From Candidatus Cryptobacteroides intestinigallinarum (GTDB lineage: Bacteria > Bacteroidota > Bacteroidia > Bacteroidales > UBA932): DNA of 64,000 nt. The stretch lies in assembly GCA_017694785.1 (NCBI GenBank), contig JADIMK010000010.1, positions 1 to 64,000 of the forward strand, in the 5' to 3' direction. The notes beneath the pieces were generated by a model that was given only the letters and a program-made list of their open reading frames with translations, was not told where the DNA came from and did not search any database. Of the stretch, positions 50,260-62,604 are shown piece after piece. Numbering within the stretch: the stretch's first letter is position 1; every line of letters begins with the position of its first letter. A program made the position numbers and the translations under genes.

Positions 50260-51351
50260 ATGGACCTCAAGCCGAGACTCCTTGATTTATATATAATCAA
50301 GAAATTCATATTCACATTCTTTATCGCGCTGATCCTCATCATAGGCATCGTGATAATTTTTGACATAAGCGAGAAGATCGATGATTTTGTGAGCAACGAG
50401 GCTCCCCTCAAGGCCATCATCTTTGACTACTATCTCAATTTCATCCCTTATTTCATGAACATGTTCAGTCCTCTGTTCGTGTTTATTACGGTCATCTTCT
50501 TTACTTCGAAGATGGCTGCCAATTCAGAGATCGTAGCCATACTTTCGTGCGGCATAAGCTTCCACAGGATGATGGTGCCATATATTGTGTCGGCTGCATT
50601 CATAGCGCTTTTCTCCCTTGCCCTCAACCTGTTCGTCATACCTCAGTCAAATGCCACGAGAGTGGAGTTCGAAAGCAAATATATCAAAGGACACACCAAG
50701 AAGACAGTCAGGAACATCCATTATCAGATAGCCCCCGGAGAGTTCGTGTATGTGGAGTCGTTCAGTACGTGGAACAATACAGCCTACAGGTTCACTCTGG
50801 AGGAAATACGCGACAACAAGCTGATTTCAAAGCTCTCGGCTGAAACCGCCGTCTGGGACAGCACGGCCGCCTGCTGGAAACTGAAGAAATATTTCATAAG
50901 GGACTATACCTCAGCTCTCGGTGACCAGGTGCGCAGCGGAGCAGAGCTTGATACCGTCATAGATCTCAGCGTCAAGGACCTTTATATACAGAAAGGCGAG
51001 GTGGAGACACTTTCCTATAAGAAACTCAACGAGATGATCGATATCCAGAAGATGAGGGGGGATGCCAATGTCAAGGTGGCTCTTATAGAAAAGCATACAA
51101 GGTTTGCCCTTCCGTTCTCAGCGTTCATCCTCACCATCATGGGCGTAGCCCTTTCTTCCAAGAAAAGGAGGGGAGGCATCGGCTGGAACATCGGTATCGG
51201 TATCGCCCTGAGCTTCTCATATATCCTTTTCCTGAGATTCAGCCAGATGTTCGTCTATACTGATTTCCTCCCGCCTGGAATAGCCCTGTGGGTGCCTAAT
51301 ATCCTTTTCGCTTTCGTCGCAGGATTCCTGTATAAGATAGCTCCTAAGTAG
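50260..51351 (+). CDS. LptF/LptG (YjgP/YjgQ) family LPS export permease
   Basis: LDLYIIKKFIFTFFIALILIIGIVIIFDISEKIDDF...FSPLFVFITVIFFTSKMAANSEIVAILSCGISFHRMMVPYI; follows tgt. Confidence 0.92.
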   Translation: MDLKPRLLDLYIIKKFIFTFFIALILIIGIVIIFDISEKIDDFVSNEAPLKAIIFDYYLNFIPYFMNMFSPLFVFITVIFFTSKMAANSEIVAILSCGISFHRMMVPYIVSAAFIALFSLALNLFVIPQSNATRVEFESKYIKGHTKKTVRNIHYQIAPGEFVYVESFSTWNNTAYRFTLEEIRDNKLISKLSAETAVWDSTAACWKLKKYFIRDYTSALGDQVRSGAELDTVIDLSVKDLYIQKGEVETLSYKKLNEMIDIQKMRGDANVKVALIEKHTRFALPFSAFILTIMGVALSSKKRRGGIGWNIGIGIALSFSYILFLRFSQMFVYTDFLPPGIALWVPNILFAFVAGFLYKIAPK

Positions 51352-51414: not shown

Positions 51415-52287
51415 ATGGAAGTTGAAATCACAGATGTACAGATCGATGTCATTGCAGGCATAGCATATTCGCAGGTCTTTACGGCAAGGAGCTGCCGTCC
51501 GTTGAGGATGACGGTGATGATTCCCCGGACAGGAGTGCCCAAGCCTGCCGTGGTCTATTTCCCTGGAGGGGGATTCGTGACATGTGATTATGAAAAGTTT
51601 GTCCAGATGCGTTTGGCACTGGCGAAGGCTGGATTTGTCGTAGCTGCCGCTGAATACAGGACTGTGCCGGACAAGTATCCGGCTCCTGTCATAGACGGGA
51701 AGGCTGCTGTCCGTTTCCTCAGGGCACATGCATCTCTTCTGGAGATAGATCCTGCGCGTATTGGAGTCCTCGGGGATTCATCCGGAGGGTATCTGGCACA
51801 GATGATTGCCGTGACCGGTGGAGATCCTGGTCTTGAAAAGGGCGAAAATCTCGGCTTTTCTTCCGAGGTGCAGGCGGCCGCTACTCTTTATGGAATAAGC
51901 GACCTCCGTAGCATCGGGGAAGGGTATCCTGATGAAATACAGAAAGTCCATGCGTCTCCGGCTGTGACTGAGGCTCTTATGCTTCATGGTCCTGCTTTCG
52001 GCAGTTTTCCCGGTGCCGGCATATTGTCTGATCCTGCAAAAGCTCTTGAGGCGAGTCCTCTTGGCCATATCCGGGAGAATCTCCCTCCGTTTCTCATAAT
52101 GCACGGCACAGTTGACACTCTTGTGTCTCCGAAGCAAAGCTCCAGGCTCTACGAGGCATTGTCTGAGAAAGGCAATGATGTCTCTTACGTCACTGTTGAG
52201 GGCGCCGGACATGGAGATCTTTTCTGGTATCAGCCGCAGCTCATAGAGACAGTAACAGGCTGGTTCAGGACAATTATGTTCCGCTGA
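51415..52287 (+). CDS. Alpha/beta hydrolase (HSL/acetyl-esterase-like)
   Basis: VVYFPGGGFVTCDYEKF, AAEYRTVPDKYPAPVID, GVLGDSSGGYLAQM (GDSSGG nucleophile), HGTVDTLVSPKQS. Confidence 0.9.
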   Translation: MEVEITDVQIDVIAGIAYSQVFTARSCRPLRMTVMIPRTGVPKPAVVYFPGGGFVTCDYEKFVQMRLALAKAGFVVAAAEYRTVPDKYPAPVIDGKAAVRFLRAHASLLEIDPARIGVLGDSSGGYLAQMIAVTGGDPGLEKGENLGFSSEVQAAATLYGISDLRSIGEGYPDEIQKVHASPAVTEALMLHGPAFGSFPGAGILSDPAKALEASPLGHIRENLPPFLIMHGTVDTLVSPKQSSRLYEALSEKGNDVSYVTVEGAGHGDLFWYQPQLIETVTGWFRTIMFR

Positions 52288-54781: not shown

Positions 54782-55468
54782 TCAGTCAAGTATTATCACC
54801 GCAATTGACCTGTGGCTGAACACAAGCTTCACAGTGTCTGATGAGGCCCTGTTGAGTGTGGCTTTCCATAGGTTGTCGAATACCACATTGTCCAGAGGCC
54901 AGACAAGGCCTTCTGAATGTATCTTCAGGCTATTGTCAGGAGTTATCACAGATACTTTCCTGCCTTCCCCGCACATGAATTCAATTGTGTCTGTAACTGG
55001 AAATGCCGTATCATAATCCGAAACCATATCGATGGACAGCCCCATTGCTTCAAGGTCGAAGGTCCTGGCATATTCCATCAGCAGGGAGACATTGCCGATT
55101 GTATGGTCCACACTCTTGCCGGTGCCGCCGATTATATGGATTTCAGAAATGTCCTTGAAATGGCTGACGGCGTAGTTGAAGGCCTTGGTCTGGTCATTTA
55201 TCTCCTGGTCTTCCACATGGACTATGATGTCGGAGTATTTCTCTTTCTTCTTTTCCGAGATGGAGTCGAGGTCACCTATCACTATGTCCGGAAATCTCAT
55301 CTTGCCTCCGGATTCCTCGGAAATCCTCAGATATCTGTCAAAGGCACCGTCGCAGCAGATTATGTAGTCCGCATTTTCTACGAATGACCTTGGATATGGC
55401 TTGCGGGGAAATTCACCGTTGCCGATTATGACAGCACTCTTTCCCATTTTACTTAGATTATCTTCCAT
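54782..55468 (-). CDS. thiN: Thiamine pyrophosphokinase
   Basis: AVIIGNGEFP, ADYIICCDGAFDRYL, PDIVIGDLDSIS, NDQTKAFNYAV, IIGGTGKSVDHTIGNVSLL. May start at the internal MGKSAVIIG. Confidence 0.9.
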   Translation of the reverse strand: MEDNLSKMGKSAVIIGNGEFPRKPYPRSFVENADYIICCDGAFDRYLRISEESGGKMRFPDIVIGDLDSISEKKKEKYSDIIVHVEDQEINDQTKAFNYAVSHFKDISEIHIIGGTGKSVDHTIGNVSLLMEYARTFDLEAMGLSIDMVSDYDTAFPVTDTIEFMCGEGRKVSVITPDNSLKIHSEGLVWPLDNVVFDNLWKATLNRASSDTVKLVFSHRSIAVIILD

Positions 55469-57903
55469 GACTCAGGCTCCCTGAAGCCTGCAAGGAAATC
55501 CTTGACATCCATTCTCTTCTTGCCTGACATCTGGAGCTGTGTGAGAGCTATGGCACCGTCCGCTGTCGTCACTGCAAGCCTTGCCTTCCCGTCGGAAAGG
55601 ATGGTGCCCGGTGCCGGAAGTGCTGCGGTCTTTGCTCCTGGATCCTCTTCTCCTGGCAATGCTGCCAGGGCCAGAGCATCTTCAGCCGAGAGCTTTTCAC
55701 TCTCATATATCTTTATCTGGGATGTCTTGCCGTCCTTTTCAATGTCCATGTAGGCTCCTGGATATGGTGAAAGTCCGCGTATGAGATTGTACACATCCTT
55801 TGTCTTCCTGTTCCAGTCGATCTTGCAGAGCTCCTTGGTGATCTTAGGTGCCGGCTTCAGCACTTCATCGCCCTGGATGAAGCTCTTCTGCATACGCAGC
55901 TCGACGTTGCCTTCTATGATGGTCTCCACTGTCTGCACCACTACCTTTGCACCGAGCTCCATGAGCTTGTCGTGGAGGGTGCCGGCTGTGTCGGTGTCGG
56001 TGATGCGGCACTGCTCCCTGAAGATTATGTGGCCTGTGTCCATGCCGTCATCTATCATGAATGTGGTGACTCCGGACATGTGTTCTCCGTTGATGATGGC
56101 CCAGTTGATAGGGGCGGCACCCCTGTACTGAGGCAGGAGGGCGGCATGCAGGTTGAATGTGCCCAGGCGCGGTATCTCCCAGACTACCTTAGGAAGTATC
56201 CTGAACGCCACTACCACGAAGAGATCCGGCTTCCATGCCTTGAGAGCCTCGAGGAATTCAGGATCCTTGAGCGAAAGCGGCTGCAGTACCGGAAGCCCGT
56301 GCTCTACGGCATATTTCTTTACCGCACTCTCATTGACTTTAAGTCCTCTGCCGCTCGCCTTGTCTGCTACTGTGACGACTCCGACGACATGATAGCCCTG
56401 CCTTATGAGTTCGTCAAGCGGTGCTACCGCAAATTCCGGTGTACCCATGTACACTATGCGTGTCCTCCTTATGCTTCCCATTATTTTCATCTTTGCTTTC
56501 TTGAACCAGGTCTTCATGCTGTCCGTACTGAATATTGACGAGTCATTTATCGCCTTCCATGTGAGGAAGATGCCTATCGGGAACAGTACATATGACGATA
56601 TGAAGACTCCTGCTGCTGCAGATATCGCCCCATCGTTGGCCAGCTTGGTCCCCGATATGTCGATGACCCAGTAGACCACGAAGAACAGGACCGATATTAT
56701 GGCCGGGGTGCCGAGTCCTCCTTTCCTTATCAGAGCACCCAGCGGTGCCCCGATGAAGAAGAATATGAAGCAGGCTATGGCAACTGCGAATTTCTTCAGC
56801 TGTTCGACATCTATCAGTCTGAGGGTGTATGTGTAGTAGTATACTTCCCGGCCGAATGTGGTAAGTTGGGATATGTATTCATTGGTGTTCGAAAGAGCCT
56901 TCTCGTAGCCGCGTATCTCCTTGTCCAGATCGTCCCATTCTCCGGCACCCTCGAATTCAAAAGGTACCTTGATGTCAGTCTTGAGCGATGTGTCAAGCTG
57001 TCTGCTGTAAGACAGTGTGCCGCTGCGTATGAGTTTCTCAAACTGCTCTTTCCTTGCATCCAGGGTTATGCCTCCGATGGAGTCCTTCCCGTGTCTGAGC
57101 TGATGCAGGTTCATTGACTTGACCTGGTCTCCGAATCTGTCATCCTCCGATTTCTGGAAGGCATAGTTCTCAAGCGGGATCACAAGTTCCTGGCGGGTAA
57201 ATTCGGATTTCTGCAGTTGGAGTGTCGTGTCCCTGAACTTCCTTGTGTTGGTCTCTTCGTAGTTGGCTCCGTTGAAAAGGGTGAAGGTCAGGTAGCTCTT
57301 GTCCTTGGACATGTTCATGATGGCCGAGTCGGCGAGAGTCAGGCTGGTGTTGCCTCTTTTGTCCTTGTGCCCGTACACCATCACGTCATGCATCATCCCG
57401 CTTTCTTCATCCCGTGTGTTGATCCTGAGGGTGTAGCCTTCGATTCCGTCATAGAAAGTACCGGTAGGTATCTTTATCTCTTCCTTGGTCTTGCCTATGT
57501 CGTCACGCAGCGTGTAGATCTTGTTGTATGCGACAGGTACAAGGTCATTGGTCGCGAAGAATGTGCCAACGCTTATGATGAAAGATGTTATGATGAGCGG
57601 TGCAAGTACCCTGCTCAGGGAGATGCCTGCCGCCTTGATGGCAAGCAGCTCGTTGTTTTCTCCCATCGTCCCCAGGGTCATCATTGAGGAAAGCAATGTG
57701 GCAAGAGGCAGGGACAGAGGCAGCAGGGTGGCGCAGCCCCATCCGAGGAATTCAAGTATGACCTTGAGACTCAATCCTTTGCCTACGAGTTCATCAATAT
57801 ATAGCCAAAGGAACTGCATCATGAGGATGAAGATGACGACAAAGAGGATCGCGAAAAACGGTCCTATGAATGATTTCAATATGAAAACGTCGAGCTTCTT
57901 CAT
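55453..57903 (-). CDS. Fused LptF/LptG-family permease (N-terminal ~471 aa) and methionyl-tRNA formyltransferase (C-terminal ~345 aa)
   Basis: Single uninterrupted ORF. N-terminal MKKLDVFILKSFIGPFFAILFVVIFILMMQFLWLYIDELVGKGLSL...GENNELLAIKAAGISLSRVL is YjgP/YjgQ. C-terminal IRRTRIVYMGTPEFAVAPLDELI...NLHAALLPQYRGAAPINWAIINGE...DDGMDTGHI...CKIDWNRKTKDVYNLIRGLSPYPGAY is Fmt. Junction about 56460-56520. Confidence 0.9.
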   Translation of the reverse strand: MKKLDVFILKSFIGPFFAILFVVIFILMMQFLWLYIDELVGKGLSLKVILEFLGWGCATLLPLSLPLATLLSSMMTLGTMGENNELLAIKAAGISLSRVLAPLIITSFIISVGTFFATNDLVPVAYNKIYTLRDDIGKTKEEIKIPTGTFYDGIEGYTLRINTRDEESGMMHDVMVYGHKDKRGNTSLTLADSAIMNMSKDKSYLTFTLFNGANYEETNTRKFRDTTLQLQKSEFTRQELVIPLENYAFQKSEDDRFGDQVKSMNLHQLRHGKDSIGGITLDARKEQFEKLIRSGTLSYSRQLDTSLKTDIKVPFEFEGAGEWDDLDKEIRGYEKALSNTNEYISQLTTFGREVYYYTYTLRLIDVEQLKKFAVAIACFIFFFIGAPLGALIRKGGLGTPAIISVLFFVVYWVIDISGTKLANDGAISAAAGVFISSYVLFPIGIFLTWKAINDSSIFSTDSMKTWFKKAKMKIMGSIRRTRIVYMGTPEFAVAPLDELIRQGYHVVGVVTVADKASGRGLKVNESAVKKYAVEHGLPVLQPLSLKDPEFLEALKAWKPDLFVVVAFRILPKVVWEIPRLGTFNLHAALLPQYRGAAPINWAIINGEHMSGVTTFMIDDGMDTGHIIFREQCRITDTDTAGTLHDKLMELGAKVVVQTVETIIEGNVELRMQKSFIQGDEVLKPAPKITKELCKIDWNRKTKDVYNLIRGLSPYPGAYMDIEKDGKTSQIKIYESEKLSAEDALALAALPGEEDPGAKTAALPAPGTILSDGKARLAVTTADGAIALTQLQMSGKKRMDVKDFLAGFREPESWKII

Positions 57904-57971: not shown

Positions 57972-60596
57972 TTATCTTGTGGCCAGTTCGATCATCGTGT
58001 TGAGAGCCTCCTGCAGTCCGTCAGTGTTCTTTCCTCCTGCAGTGGCAAGGCCAGGCTGTCCGCCTCCTCCTCCGAGGATGGCTTTGGCAGCTTCTCTGAT
58101 GTCCTTGGCTGCATTGTGTCCTGCCTCTACAAGGTCAGGTGAATACATCAGGAGCAGCTGCGGCTTGCCCTGGTATTCAAATGCACCTGCTACAACCATA
58201 TCTGTAGTCTCCTTCTGGAGAAGAAGTGCTGCGTTCTTGAGTACGGAAGGGTCTATCGGACTGCTGAAAGAAATGACTTTGACGCCATTGATCTCACGGC
58301 TGTTGCTTATGAGAGTATTCTTGAGGGCAATGGTCTTTTCCTTGATCACAGCTTCCATCTCTTTCTTGAAATGGTCGTTCTCCTCGATGAGTTTCCTGAT
58401 TGAAAGAGCGAGGTCCGGCGCATTGTTGAAGAGGGCCTTGGCTGATCTGAGCATTGATTCCATGGCATCAACGACATTCTCAGCATCTTCACCTGTGGTA
58501 GCCTCGATTCTTCTGATTCCGGCTGCTATGGCGCTCTCTGAAACTATCTTGAAGAAGCCGATCTGGCCGGTGGCAGCTGCATGTGTACCTCCGCAGAGTT
58601 CGACGGAGTCTCCGAACTTAACTATCCTCACCCTGTCTCCGTATTTTTCTCCGAAGAGAGCCATCGCTCCCATCTCCTTCGCCTGGTCAATGGTCGCGTA
58701 CCTGTTCTCTTCAAGCGGACTGTTGAGCCTTATGAGCTCGTTGACACGTTTCTCGACCTTCTCTATCTGTTCGTCTGTCATCTTCTCGAAGTGTGAGAAG
58801 TCGAAGCGGAAATATGAAGGAGCGACATAAGAACCTTTCTGCTCCACATGTGTGCCGAGGATTTCCCTGAGGGCCTGATGGAGAAGATGTGTCGCCGTGT
58901 GGTTTGCTGTGATCCTCAGTCTTCTTGCGGCATCAACATGGAGGGTGAACTCTCCGCTGCAGTCTGAAGGTATGCGTTCAGCGATATGGATGGTAAGGTT
59001 GTTTTCCTTTATGGTGTTGAGTATCTCTATCTTTTCACCTGACTCTGACATGATCCAGCCTGTATCTCCGACCTGTCCTCCCATCTCGGCGTAGAACGGA
59101 GTCTTGTCGAATACCAGCTGGTACATCACCTTGTTCTTGGCCTTGACAGTGCGATGGCGGACAAGTGATGCACCGCTGATCTCGGTGAAGTCGTAGCCTA
59201 CGAACTCGACATTGTCGCAATGGTGGAATTCTACCCAGTCACCTGATTCGAGGGCAGTGGCGTTCCTTGCCCTCTCCTTCTGCTTCTGGAGCTCTTTCTC
59301 GAAATTCTCCAGGTCGATGGTGAAGCCGTTCTCTGATGCTATCAGCTCACTCAGGTCGATAGGGAAGCCGTATGTGTCATAGAGCACGAAGGCGTCTTCT
59401 CCGCTTATCACCTTTGTGTCCTTTGATTTCTCCATTATTGAGTCCATGAGCCTTATGCCTCTGTCGAGGGTACGGAGAAATGCCATCTCCTCCTCCCTGA
59501 TGACTTTCTCAATGAGGCTTTGCTGGCTCGCGATTTCAGGATATGATGAGCCCATGTCGTCGACAAGCTGGCCGACAAGCCTGCAGAGGAACGGTTCGTT
59601 GAATCCGAGGAATGTATGTCCGTATCTGACTGCCCTGCGGAGGATTCTTCTGATGACATATCCTGCCTTCACATTTGAAGGAAGCTGTCCGTCAGCTATC
59701 GAGAAGCTGATGGCCCTGATGTGGTCGGCGATTACCCTCATCGCCACTTCTGTCTTTTCAGACTCATGGTATGAGTGTCCGGAAAGCTCTTCGATCTTGT
59801 GGATCATGCCGGTGAACACGTCTGTGTCATAGTTGCTCGTCTTGCCCTGGAGAGCCATGCAGAGCCTTTCGAATCCCATTCCGGTATCTACGTTCTTGTT
59901 CGGAAGCGGCTCAAGATGTCCGTCAGCCTTGCGGTTGAACTGCATGAACACCAGATTCCATATCTCAATGACGAGATGGTGCCCTTTGTTGACAAGTTCG
60001 CGTCCCGGAAGGGCAGCCCTTTCTTCGTCGCTCCTGAGGTCGATGTGGATCTCGCTGCACGGACCGCATGGACCTGTATCTCCCATTTCCCAGAAGTTGT
60101 CGTGCTTGTCTCCGAGCAGGATCCTGTCTTCAGGCAGATATTTCTTCCATTCTTCGAAGGCTTCTGTATCCATTTCGGTGTGGTCTCCGTCATTTCCCTT
60201 GAAGACTGTGGCATAAAGCCTGTCCTTGTCTATCTTGTAGACTTCCGTGAGAAGCTCCCATGCCCATGCGATCACCTCTTTCTTGAAATAGTCGCCGAAG
60301 CTCCAGTTGCCGAGCATCTCGAACATCGTATGGTGGTATGAATCGTGCCCGACTTCTTCAAGGTCGTTGTGCTTGCCGCTGACCCTCAGACATTTCTGGC
60401 TGTCGGTGACCCTTTTGTACTTAGGGATACTGTTGCCTAGGAACCAGTCCTTGAACTGGTTCATGCCTGCGTTGGTAAACATGAGTGTCGGGTCGTTCTT
60501 TACTACCATAGGTGCAGAAGGGACTATGACATGTCCCTTTGATGCGAAAAAGTCCAGGAAAGCCTGTCTTATTTCTTTGGAAGTCATATTGTTCAT
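57972..60596 (-). CDS. alaS: Alanyl-tRNA synthetase
   Basis: [79 protein letters not shown]. Confidence 0.98.
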
Positions 60597-60630
60597 TATG
60601 TTTTTTCTGTTTTATCCAACAAATAACCTG

Positions 60631-60638
60631 CAAAATTA
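60631..60638 (-). promoter_or_regulatory. Candidate -7 promoter element (TAATTTTG) for alaS
   Basis: Minus strand TAATTTTGCAGG, 35 nt upstream of the alaS ATG. Confidence 0.4.
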
Positions 60639-60661
60639 TAACTTTTTTGGAAATAATGGAC

Positions 60662-60669
60662 TATATTTG
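60662..60669 (+). promoter_or_regulatory. Candidate -7 promoter element (TATATTTG) for the M23 peptidase operon
   Basis: gacTATATTTGcg, identical 13-mer to the box at 1088-1100; only 4 nt before the ATG at 60674. Confidence 0.45.
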
Positions 60670-60673
60670 CGAC

Positions 60674-61657
60674 ATGTCAAAATACCGGAAGTACAGATTC
60701 AACAGCGATACCCTCTCCTACGAGATCATCAAGGAGAAATCTGCACGCCGCCGCCTTTTCAAAAGCATCTTCCTTTTCGTGGGAAGTGTAGCTGCGGCTG
60801 TGTTCTATGCTTGGGTATATACGTCTGTGCTTGGCAATGAGCTTCCGAAGACAGTGATCCTGAGGAAGGCCAATGCCCGCCTGAGCTCAAAGGTGGAGGT
60901 GATGAACCGTCAGCTCGACCGCTACGATGAAATCCTTTCCGCTCTGTCCATGCGCGACAATGATATCTATCGTGCGGTATTCGGAATGTATGAGATACCT
61001 GATGAAGTAAGGAATGCAGGATATGGAGGAGTGAACAGGTATTCATATCTTGACTACGGAGACTGCTCCGGTCTTCTGCGCAATACCGTGATCCGTCTGG
61101 ATGTCCTGACGAAAAAGACTTTCGTGCAGAGCAAGTCCTTTGATGAAATCGCTGCAATAGCAAGACATTCCGGAGACATGGTCCTTTGTGTCCCTGCGCT
61201 TTCTCCTATCTGCCCGGCTCCCGGCACCTACCATATTTCCAGCTATTTCGGAAGGCGTACTGATCCTGTCTACGGACGTACTGCATTCCATGAAGGAATG
61301 GATTTCGCACTGCAGCCCGGCAACGGCATATATGCTACTGCTGACGGAGTCGTTGAGAAGGTGCGTCATGAATTCTTCGGGTACGGCAATTCTGTGGTCA
61401 TAGACCATGGATTCGGCTACAAGACAAGATATGCACACATGAAGTCGATCTCTGTCCATGAAGGAGAGAAGGTAAGACGCGGCTCCCTGCTCGGTCAATC
61501 CGGCAATTCCGGCAAGTCCACAGGTCCTCATCTGCACTATGAGGTCATATATAAGGGAAAGGCAGTCAACCCGTTGAACTATGTGGACCTTTCAATGGAC
61601 AAGGATGAATACATGTCTCTGGTGGATAATGTCAGAGAACAGTCCGGACAGTCATGA
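60674..61657 (+). CDS. M23 family metallopeptidase (murein DD-endopeptidase-like)
   Basis: N-terminal TM; YFGRRTDPVYGRTAFHEGMDFAL (HxxxD) and GPHLHYEVIYKGKAVNPLNY (HxH). Confidence 0.93.
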   Translation: MSKYRKYRFNSDTLSYEIIKEKSARRRLFKSIFLFVGSVAAAVFYAWVYTSVLGNELPKTVILRKANARLSSKVEVMNRQLDRYDEILSALSMRDNDIYRAVFGMYEIPDEVRNAGYGGVNRYSYLDYGDCSGLLRNTVIRLDVLTKKTFVQSKSFDEIAAIARHSGDMVLCVPALSPICPAPGTYHISSYFGRRTDPVYGRTAFHEGMDFALQPGNGIYATADGVVEKVRHEFFGYGNSVVIDHGFGYKTRYAHMKSISVHEGEKVRRGSLLGQSGNSGKSTGPHLHYEVIYKGKAVNPLNYVDLSMDKDEYMSLVDNVREQSGQS

Positions 61658-62604
61658 GCAGCCGCTACATAATCGACAAGGACGACTTCAGGATCAGGAA
61701 AGTCCGTCCGAATGCAGCCAGGATCTTGCGCAGGGTACTGAAATATTTTCTGGTCAGCATTTCTCTTGCTGTCGTGTATTATATGATCTTTGCGCTCATA
61801 TTCAGCACAGATACAGAACGGAAGCTCAAGCAGGAGAACCGCATGTATGAAAAGCTTTATCCTGGCATGCAGGATAAGGAAGCTCTTCTGGGTGGTGTAG
61901 TGTCAGAGCTGGAGGCGCGGGACAACAGCATATATGAAGAGATTTTCAACTCTTCGTCCCCTCTTTCTCCGGATTTCGGCTATACATTCTTCATGGATTC
62001 AGCAGATTCGGTCTCTGATGAAGGTCTTGTACGTTATACTGAAGCCAAACTGAATGATGCGTCGGCAAAGGCGGCTTATGTGGGGCAGACTCTGAAGGAT
62101 GCGGTGGACATGTGTCTGGCGGCAGGAGATTCTCTTCCGCCGCTTGTGCTTCCTCTGAAAGATTTTCCTTATGCACAGACAGGTGCATCTGCCGGCATGA
62201 AGATGAGCCCGTTCTATAAAGTGTATCATAAGCATAAAGGGCTGGACCTGATTGTCCCTTCCGGGACACCGGTATATGCTCCGGCCGACGGCAAGGTCGT
62301 ACTTGTCCGCAGGTCCGGACGAGAATCAGGAAATGTTCTTGTCCTGGATCACGGCAACGGATATTCAACAGGATATGCCCATTTGAAGGAGATACTTGTG
62401 CGTGACGGACGTATGGTTAAGAAAGGTGACCAGATAGCGACTACCGGATCTTCTGGAAAGTCTTTCGCCCCTCATCTGCATTATGAAGTGATCAAGGATA
62501 CGCTGCCTCAGGATCCGGTCAATTATTTCTTCGGGTCAGTTACACCTGAGGAATATATGGAGATGATGATCCTGGGTGAAAGCATAGCCCAGTCTATGGA
62601 GTGA
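61654..62604 (+). CDS. M23 family metallopeptidase, tandem paralog
   Basis: Same architecture as the preceding gene; HKHKGLDLIVPSGTPVYAPADGKV and APHLHYEVI; ATGA overlap. Confidence 0.92.
   Translation: MSSRYIIDKDDFRIRKVRPNAARILRRVLKYFLVSISLAVVYYMIFALIFSTDTERKLKQENRMYEKLYPGMQDKEALLGGVVSELEARDNSIYEEIFNSSSPLSPDFGYTFFMDSADSVSDEGLVRYTEAKLNDASAKAAYVGQTLKDAVDMCLAAGDSLPPLVLPLKDFPYAQTGASAGMKMSPFYKVYHKHKGLDLIVPSGTPVYAPADGKVVLVRRSGRESGNVLVLDHGNGYSTGYAHLKEILVRDGRMVKKGDQIATTGSSGKSFAPHLHYEVIKDTLPQDPVNYFFGSVTPEEYMEMMILGESIAQSME

Follow-up and report, generated by a model that had tools for sequence, protein, structure and literature searches.

In Candidatus Cryptobacteroides intestinigallinarum, a lipopolysaccharide (LPS) permease of the LptF/LptG family and methionyl-tRNA formyltransferase (Fmt) are encoded by a single open reading frame (ORF). 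The likely explanation is a genuine fusion of the neighbouring genes lptF and fmt, giving one membrane-tethered bifunctional chain. The ORF lies in the 64,000-nucleotide stretch of contig JADIMK010000010.1 analyzed here (the window; Table 1). A preliminary description of the window had placed it at 55453-57903 without stating a strand; these coordinates are exact, the 816-aa ORF is on the minus strand, and the plus strand of the same interval contains stops throughout. The open frame claimed for the junction also held, with the peptide ...TWKAINDSSIFSTDSMKTWFKKAKMKIMGSIRRTRIVYMGTPEFAV... free of stop codons, and the domain search returned the complete permease followed by the complete Fmt that had been read from the sequence, with Pfam LptF_LptG, Formyl_trans_N and Formyl_trans_C all matching. 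The quoted NLH...LLPxYRGAAPI and DDGMDTG motifs are found in the ORF, and the reported near absence of a linker corresponds to ~30 residues between the last membrane helix and the first Fmt strand, a spacer that is the permease's own C-terminal tail. The single-ORF LptF-Fmt fusion was borne out, and it is kept across one genus and beyond.

Table 1 Features of the fused ORF and its surroundings (window coordinates).
Feature	Position	Strand	Remarks
lptF-fmt fused ORF	55453..57903	-	816 aa, ATG start, stop at 55453-55455
LptF/LptG permease half, residues 1-450	56554..57903	-	six predicted membrane helices; beta-jellyroll strands at 150-243
Coupling helix, residues 85-91 (ELLAIKA)	57631..57651	-	E85 in 118/118 fused proteins
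Junction tail, residues 451-481	56461..56553	-	basic, predicted helix 460-478, pLDDT about 55
Methionyl-tRNA formyltransferase half, residues 482-816 and stop	55453..56460	-	
NLHAALLPQYRGAAPI motif with catalytic N584 and H586	56107..56154	-	aligned with 1FMT; 118/118
DDGMDTG motif with catalytic D622	56032..56052	-	aligned with 1FMT; 118/118
alaS, upstream neighbour	57972..60596	-	name from sequence
Thiamine-pyrophosphokinase-like gene	54782..55468	-	overlaps fused ORF end by 16 nt; name from sequence
Second, stand-alone LptF/LptG permease	50290..51336	+	

The first half of the protein matched Pfam LptF_LptG (PF03739) at residues 8-450 (E 2.6e-66, 224.5 bits against a cut-off of 27.9; profile positions 3-353 of 353), and a sequence search matched it to solved LptF chains with E about 1e-9. 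The structure model contains six long helices flanking a jellyroll with six strands at 150-243, and the fused-protein sequences show hydrophobic peaks for helices 1, 3, 4, 5 and 6, with helix 2 weak. LptF spans the membrane with six helices, the LptB ATPases sit on the cytoplasmic side, and its E84 is comparable with the coupling-helix glutamate (PMC5548808). This half resembles LptF (YjgP) of LptB2FG in its full PF03739 match, the six helices of its model, jellyroll strands, coupling-helix Glu and match to solved chains. The fused protein differs from LptF in bearing a complete Fmt at its presumably cytoplasmic C-terminus, in an extra helical stretch (about 253-360) between the jellyroll and helix 4, and in scoring under the cut-off of the NCBIfam LptF equivalog TIGR04407 (144 bits against 230; LptG model, 86.7 against 240). 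Because of that score we name the permease half LptF-like.

By analogy with LptB2FG, both termini of LptF would be cytoplasmic and the coupling helix would be expected to contact LptB. LptB is present in the genome (355.7 bits, over the cut-off), as is an OstA_2 protein, and the stand-alone permease of the window is the probable LptG partner. The LptF-like half would work with LptB and LptG in LPS extraction. Immediately after the second permease, at 51415-52287, lies a BD-FAE/Abhydrolase_3 esterase.

The second half aligned over its full length with E. coli Fmt (1FMT; E 7e-62). Formyl_trans_N was matched at residues 482-659 (E 1e-37) and Formyl_trans_C (PF02911) at 687-808 (E 3.7e-24, 85.3 bits against 21.1), and the NCBIfam fmt equivalog TIGR00460 was passed with 246.5 against a cut-off of 201.5. 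When modelled, this half superposes on solved Fmt structures with TM 0.83-0.89, normalised by target length. The GRG loop (G518-R519-G520) occurs in all 118 fused proteins, and an alignment of these 118 distinct sequences shows E85, R519, N584, H586 and D622 to be invariant. In its two domains, its catalytic N-H-D, its score over the TIGR00460 cut-off and its 1FMT/2FMT fold, the fused half is like known Fmt, from which it differs in having no conserved start codon of its own and running on from the tail of a membrane protein. No other Formyl_trans_N protein was found in the genome (2.24 Mb, 91% complete), which also contains a peptide deformylase, and the fused Fmt half would be expected to formylate Met-tRNAfMet. 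Judged by their sequences, both the LptF and the Fmt halves look functional.

A further parallel is ArnA, in which a formyltransferase of the same superfamily is also joined in one chain to another domain and the biology also concerns LPS. ArnA is an enzyme of lipid A modification and its formyltransferase domain acts on a UDP-sugar. However, the fused Fmt half fits ArnA poorly (144 of 777 bits), and the partner domain in ArnA is a dehydrogenase/decarboxylase rather than an LPS permease.

In this genome a PF00551 search matched only the fused Fmt, with no PurN detected, which PurT or genome incompleteness may explain. On another contig (C88:1401-2912, minus strand; L183:613-2127:-), a 504-aa ORF combines a lipoprotein-like peptide deformylase (PF01327) with Beta-lactamase2 (PF13354). 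Relatives encode the deformylase (about 210-270 aa) and Beta-lactamase2 (about 300-370 aa) separately, and in one other genome (G003) the deformylase match sits within a 538-aa frame.

Comparison with unfused relatives indicates that the junction tail consists of the C-terminal tail of unfused LptF plus the Fmt leader. The distance from position 450 to MGT is 35-50 residues in most fused genes, similar to the sum of tail and leader in most unfused relatives (about 36-54 residues), which argues that little or nothing was inserted at the fusion. LptF tails after position 450 are about 150-180 residues long in L060, L061 and L070, compared with 30-56 in most of the family. In the structure model (mean pLDDT 79, about 55 in the linker) the tail is helical at residues 460-478, and Fmt opens with a strand at 482; with a pTM of 0.45, the model does not fix the relative placement of the halves or any collision with LptB.

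The source is a draft assembly of 102 contigs, so an assembly or sequencing error could in principle have deleted a stop codon between two ordinary genes. We searched 100 relatives with the whole fused protein. Of the 60 other same-genus genomes, 54 gave one-piece matches at 58-79% identity with an open junction, the frames measuring about 790-860 aa. A stop at the junction, which the preliminary description had named as a refutation, was found in none of the 60. The six remaining genomes had contig ends, small fragments, no match or, in G025, a frameshift within the permease. The junction is likewise open in over 100 distinct sequences, drawn from independent assemblies and reaching down to about 50% identity. 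An artefact is therefore extremely improbable, and we regard that reading as refuted by the sequences of the relatives.

Full-length matches with species names come from Candidatus Cryptobacteroides faecigallinarum, excrementipullorum, faecipullorum, intestinipullorum and caccocaballi and from Candidatus Merdivivens pullistercoris and pullicola, and the named records of the two genera stem from birds, horses and ruminants. Cryptobacteroides sits in the GTDB family UBA932 (PMC8035907). A survey of this family found a fusion-sized frame in every listed same-genus genome and also in genera g46, g56, g57 and g58. A closer look added g43, g44 and g47, which brings the further genera with the fusion to at least seven in this family. 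Two separate ORFs are found in g45, g51, g52, g53, g60, g62, g63 and other genera of the family. Outside the family, when 159 genomes from the order and 170 from the phylum were surveyed with the Fmt half, the matches listed included no fusion-sized frame. One genome of another family, G074, had appeared to be fused (821-aa frame) and was rejected: a TAG and a TAA lie between its genes, and a second survey gave a 319-aa frame. In another class of the phylum, Fmt matches at G575:C77:12444-13184 and G599:C12:383608-384345 lie in frames of 523 and 457 aa, possibly other Fmt fusions.

The genes around lptF and fmt, presumably alaS, ribBA and thiamine pyrophosphokinase (named from sequence), bear on how the fusion arose. 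The order alaS - lptF/fmt - thiamine pyrophosphokinase is conserved, and unfused lptF and fmt of other genera in the family share the same genes and order, with alaS before and thiamine pyrophosphokinase after, the fused genera being identical save that two ORFs are one. Other families have lptF and fmt on one strand, separated by 2.0-3.7 kb; ribBA precedes fmt there, and in some of these families two more genes also intervene. Only ribBA separates the two genes in L060 and L061, early-branching members of the family, and in the inner unfused genera the spacing is about -31 to +20 nt, depending on the start codons chosen. The family and its outgroups thus hold a series of arrangements: separated, adjacent, overlapping and fused. 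On the other side of alaS, two adjacent plus-strand genes at 60539-62604 (372 and 316 aa) resemble a pair of membrane-anchored M23-type peptidases with a similar layout; a similar pair adjoins alaS in L050 and L048.

A single origin of all fused genes as one clade was rejected by a tree test (p-AU 0.0099 for both proteins together, 0.0047 for LptF alone and 0.043 for Fmt alone), so the fused/unfused state changed at least twice. On the tree of both proteins, at least two changes are forced and the best tree has four. The fused genes of g43 and g47 stand apart from the remaining ones; a single clade of all except these two was tolerated (p 0.44), and these others may or may not share one origin. 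Gains appear likelier than losses, given that the outer genera are unfused, and one gain followed by reversal would also fit. One unfused genome, L073, belongs to the same genus (g43) as the fused L056 and has a stop codon between its two genes; it was given little weight, its permease being masked and frameshifted.

A fused ORF need not yield a fused protein, and Fmt could also, or mainly, be produced by internal initiation at an ATG in the tail, such as that of Met475. An ATG lies 22 to 4 codons before MGTP in 79 of the 118 fused genes, an ATG, GTG or TTG in 96, and in unfused relatives Fmt mostly starts 5-14 codons ahead of MGT. Met475 itself is present in 59 of 118 fused proteins; in the others, A, L, K, S and I are freely exchanged at this position. 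However, 22 of the 118 genes, from several genera, have no ATG, GTG or TTG in the tail able to start an intact Fmt. Synonymous variation is also reduced at the true start and ordinary at the junction: codon variation at conserved residues is low in codons 2-20 (2.4% of equal windows are as low), and no constraint is seen at the junction (31-63% as low), in a comparison with some 20 columns to each window. No embedded start region emerged from a synonymous-site search of the fused genes. Since start codons are lacking in those 22 genes and the junction shows no constraint, internal initiation is no general requirement. The re-initiation raised in the preliminary description is accordingly disfavoured as a general route and we consider it unlikely here, although it may operate in some species. 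Cleavage of the full chain by a protease in the tail, releasing free LptF and free Fmt, would suit the tail, which is short and basic and which the model shows as only moderately ordered. Against it, no conserved cut motif is visible, the tail varies freely outside its basic and hydrophobic positions, and its length varies between genera; we find this quite improbable.

The explanation that we favour is a genuine fusion giving one chain. As synteny shows, ribBA was lost from between lptF and fmt in this lineage, making them direct neighbours, which would then have become closely spaced or overlapping. The lptF stop would next have disappeared in frame with fmt, leaving one ORF, probably at least twice. 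The product would be a single inner-membrane protein of roughly 90 kDa whose N-terminal half is the LptF of the LptB2FG lipopolysaccharide extractor. The basic tail of the permease would attach the C-terminal Fmt to membrane helix 6 at its cytoplasmic end, and this Fmt would formylate Met-tRNA on the cytoplasmic face of the membrane. The six-helix topology of LptF likewise points to an Fmt on the cytoplasmic side next to the membrane. The reason for the fusion is most likely permissive, not regulatory: joining would have cost little because the two ends concerned, the C-terminus of LptF and the N-terminus of Fmt, are free in the cytoplasm and because the genes already stood side by side and were probably co-translated. 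It seems doubtful that the fusion was selected, with the only Fmt sited on the LPS exporter so as to couple the supply of initiator fMet-tRNA, and through it the start of translation, to how many outer-membrane building machines there are or how active they are, and with several lineages of the family favouring this independently.

The LptF and Fmt families are known. In the open-access literature we found no published description of an LptF-Fmt fusion, and within that literature the joined architecture is apparently undescribed; the evidence that it is real is good, that for why it exists weak. Automatic annotation may label such proteins by one half only. Cell-envelope and translation-initiation proteins that are normally separate are here encoded as one chain in widespread, uncultured animal-gut Bacteroidales. 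If this chain stays whole, Fmt would act as a membrane-anchored enzyme with its copy number locked one-to-one to that of LptF. With more than one change of state, the family offers a rare series for the origin of bacterial gene fusions.
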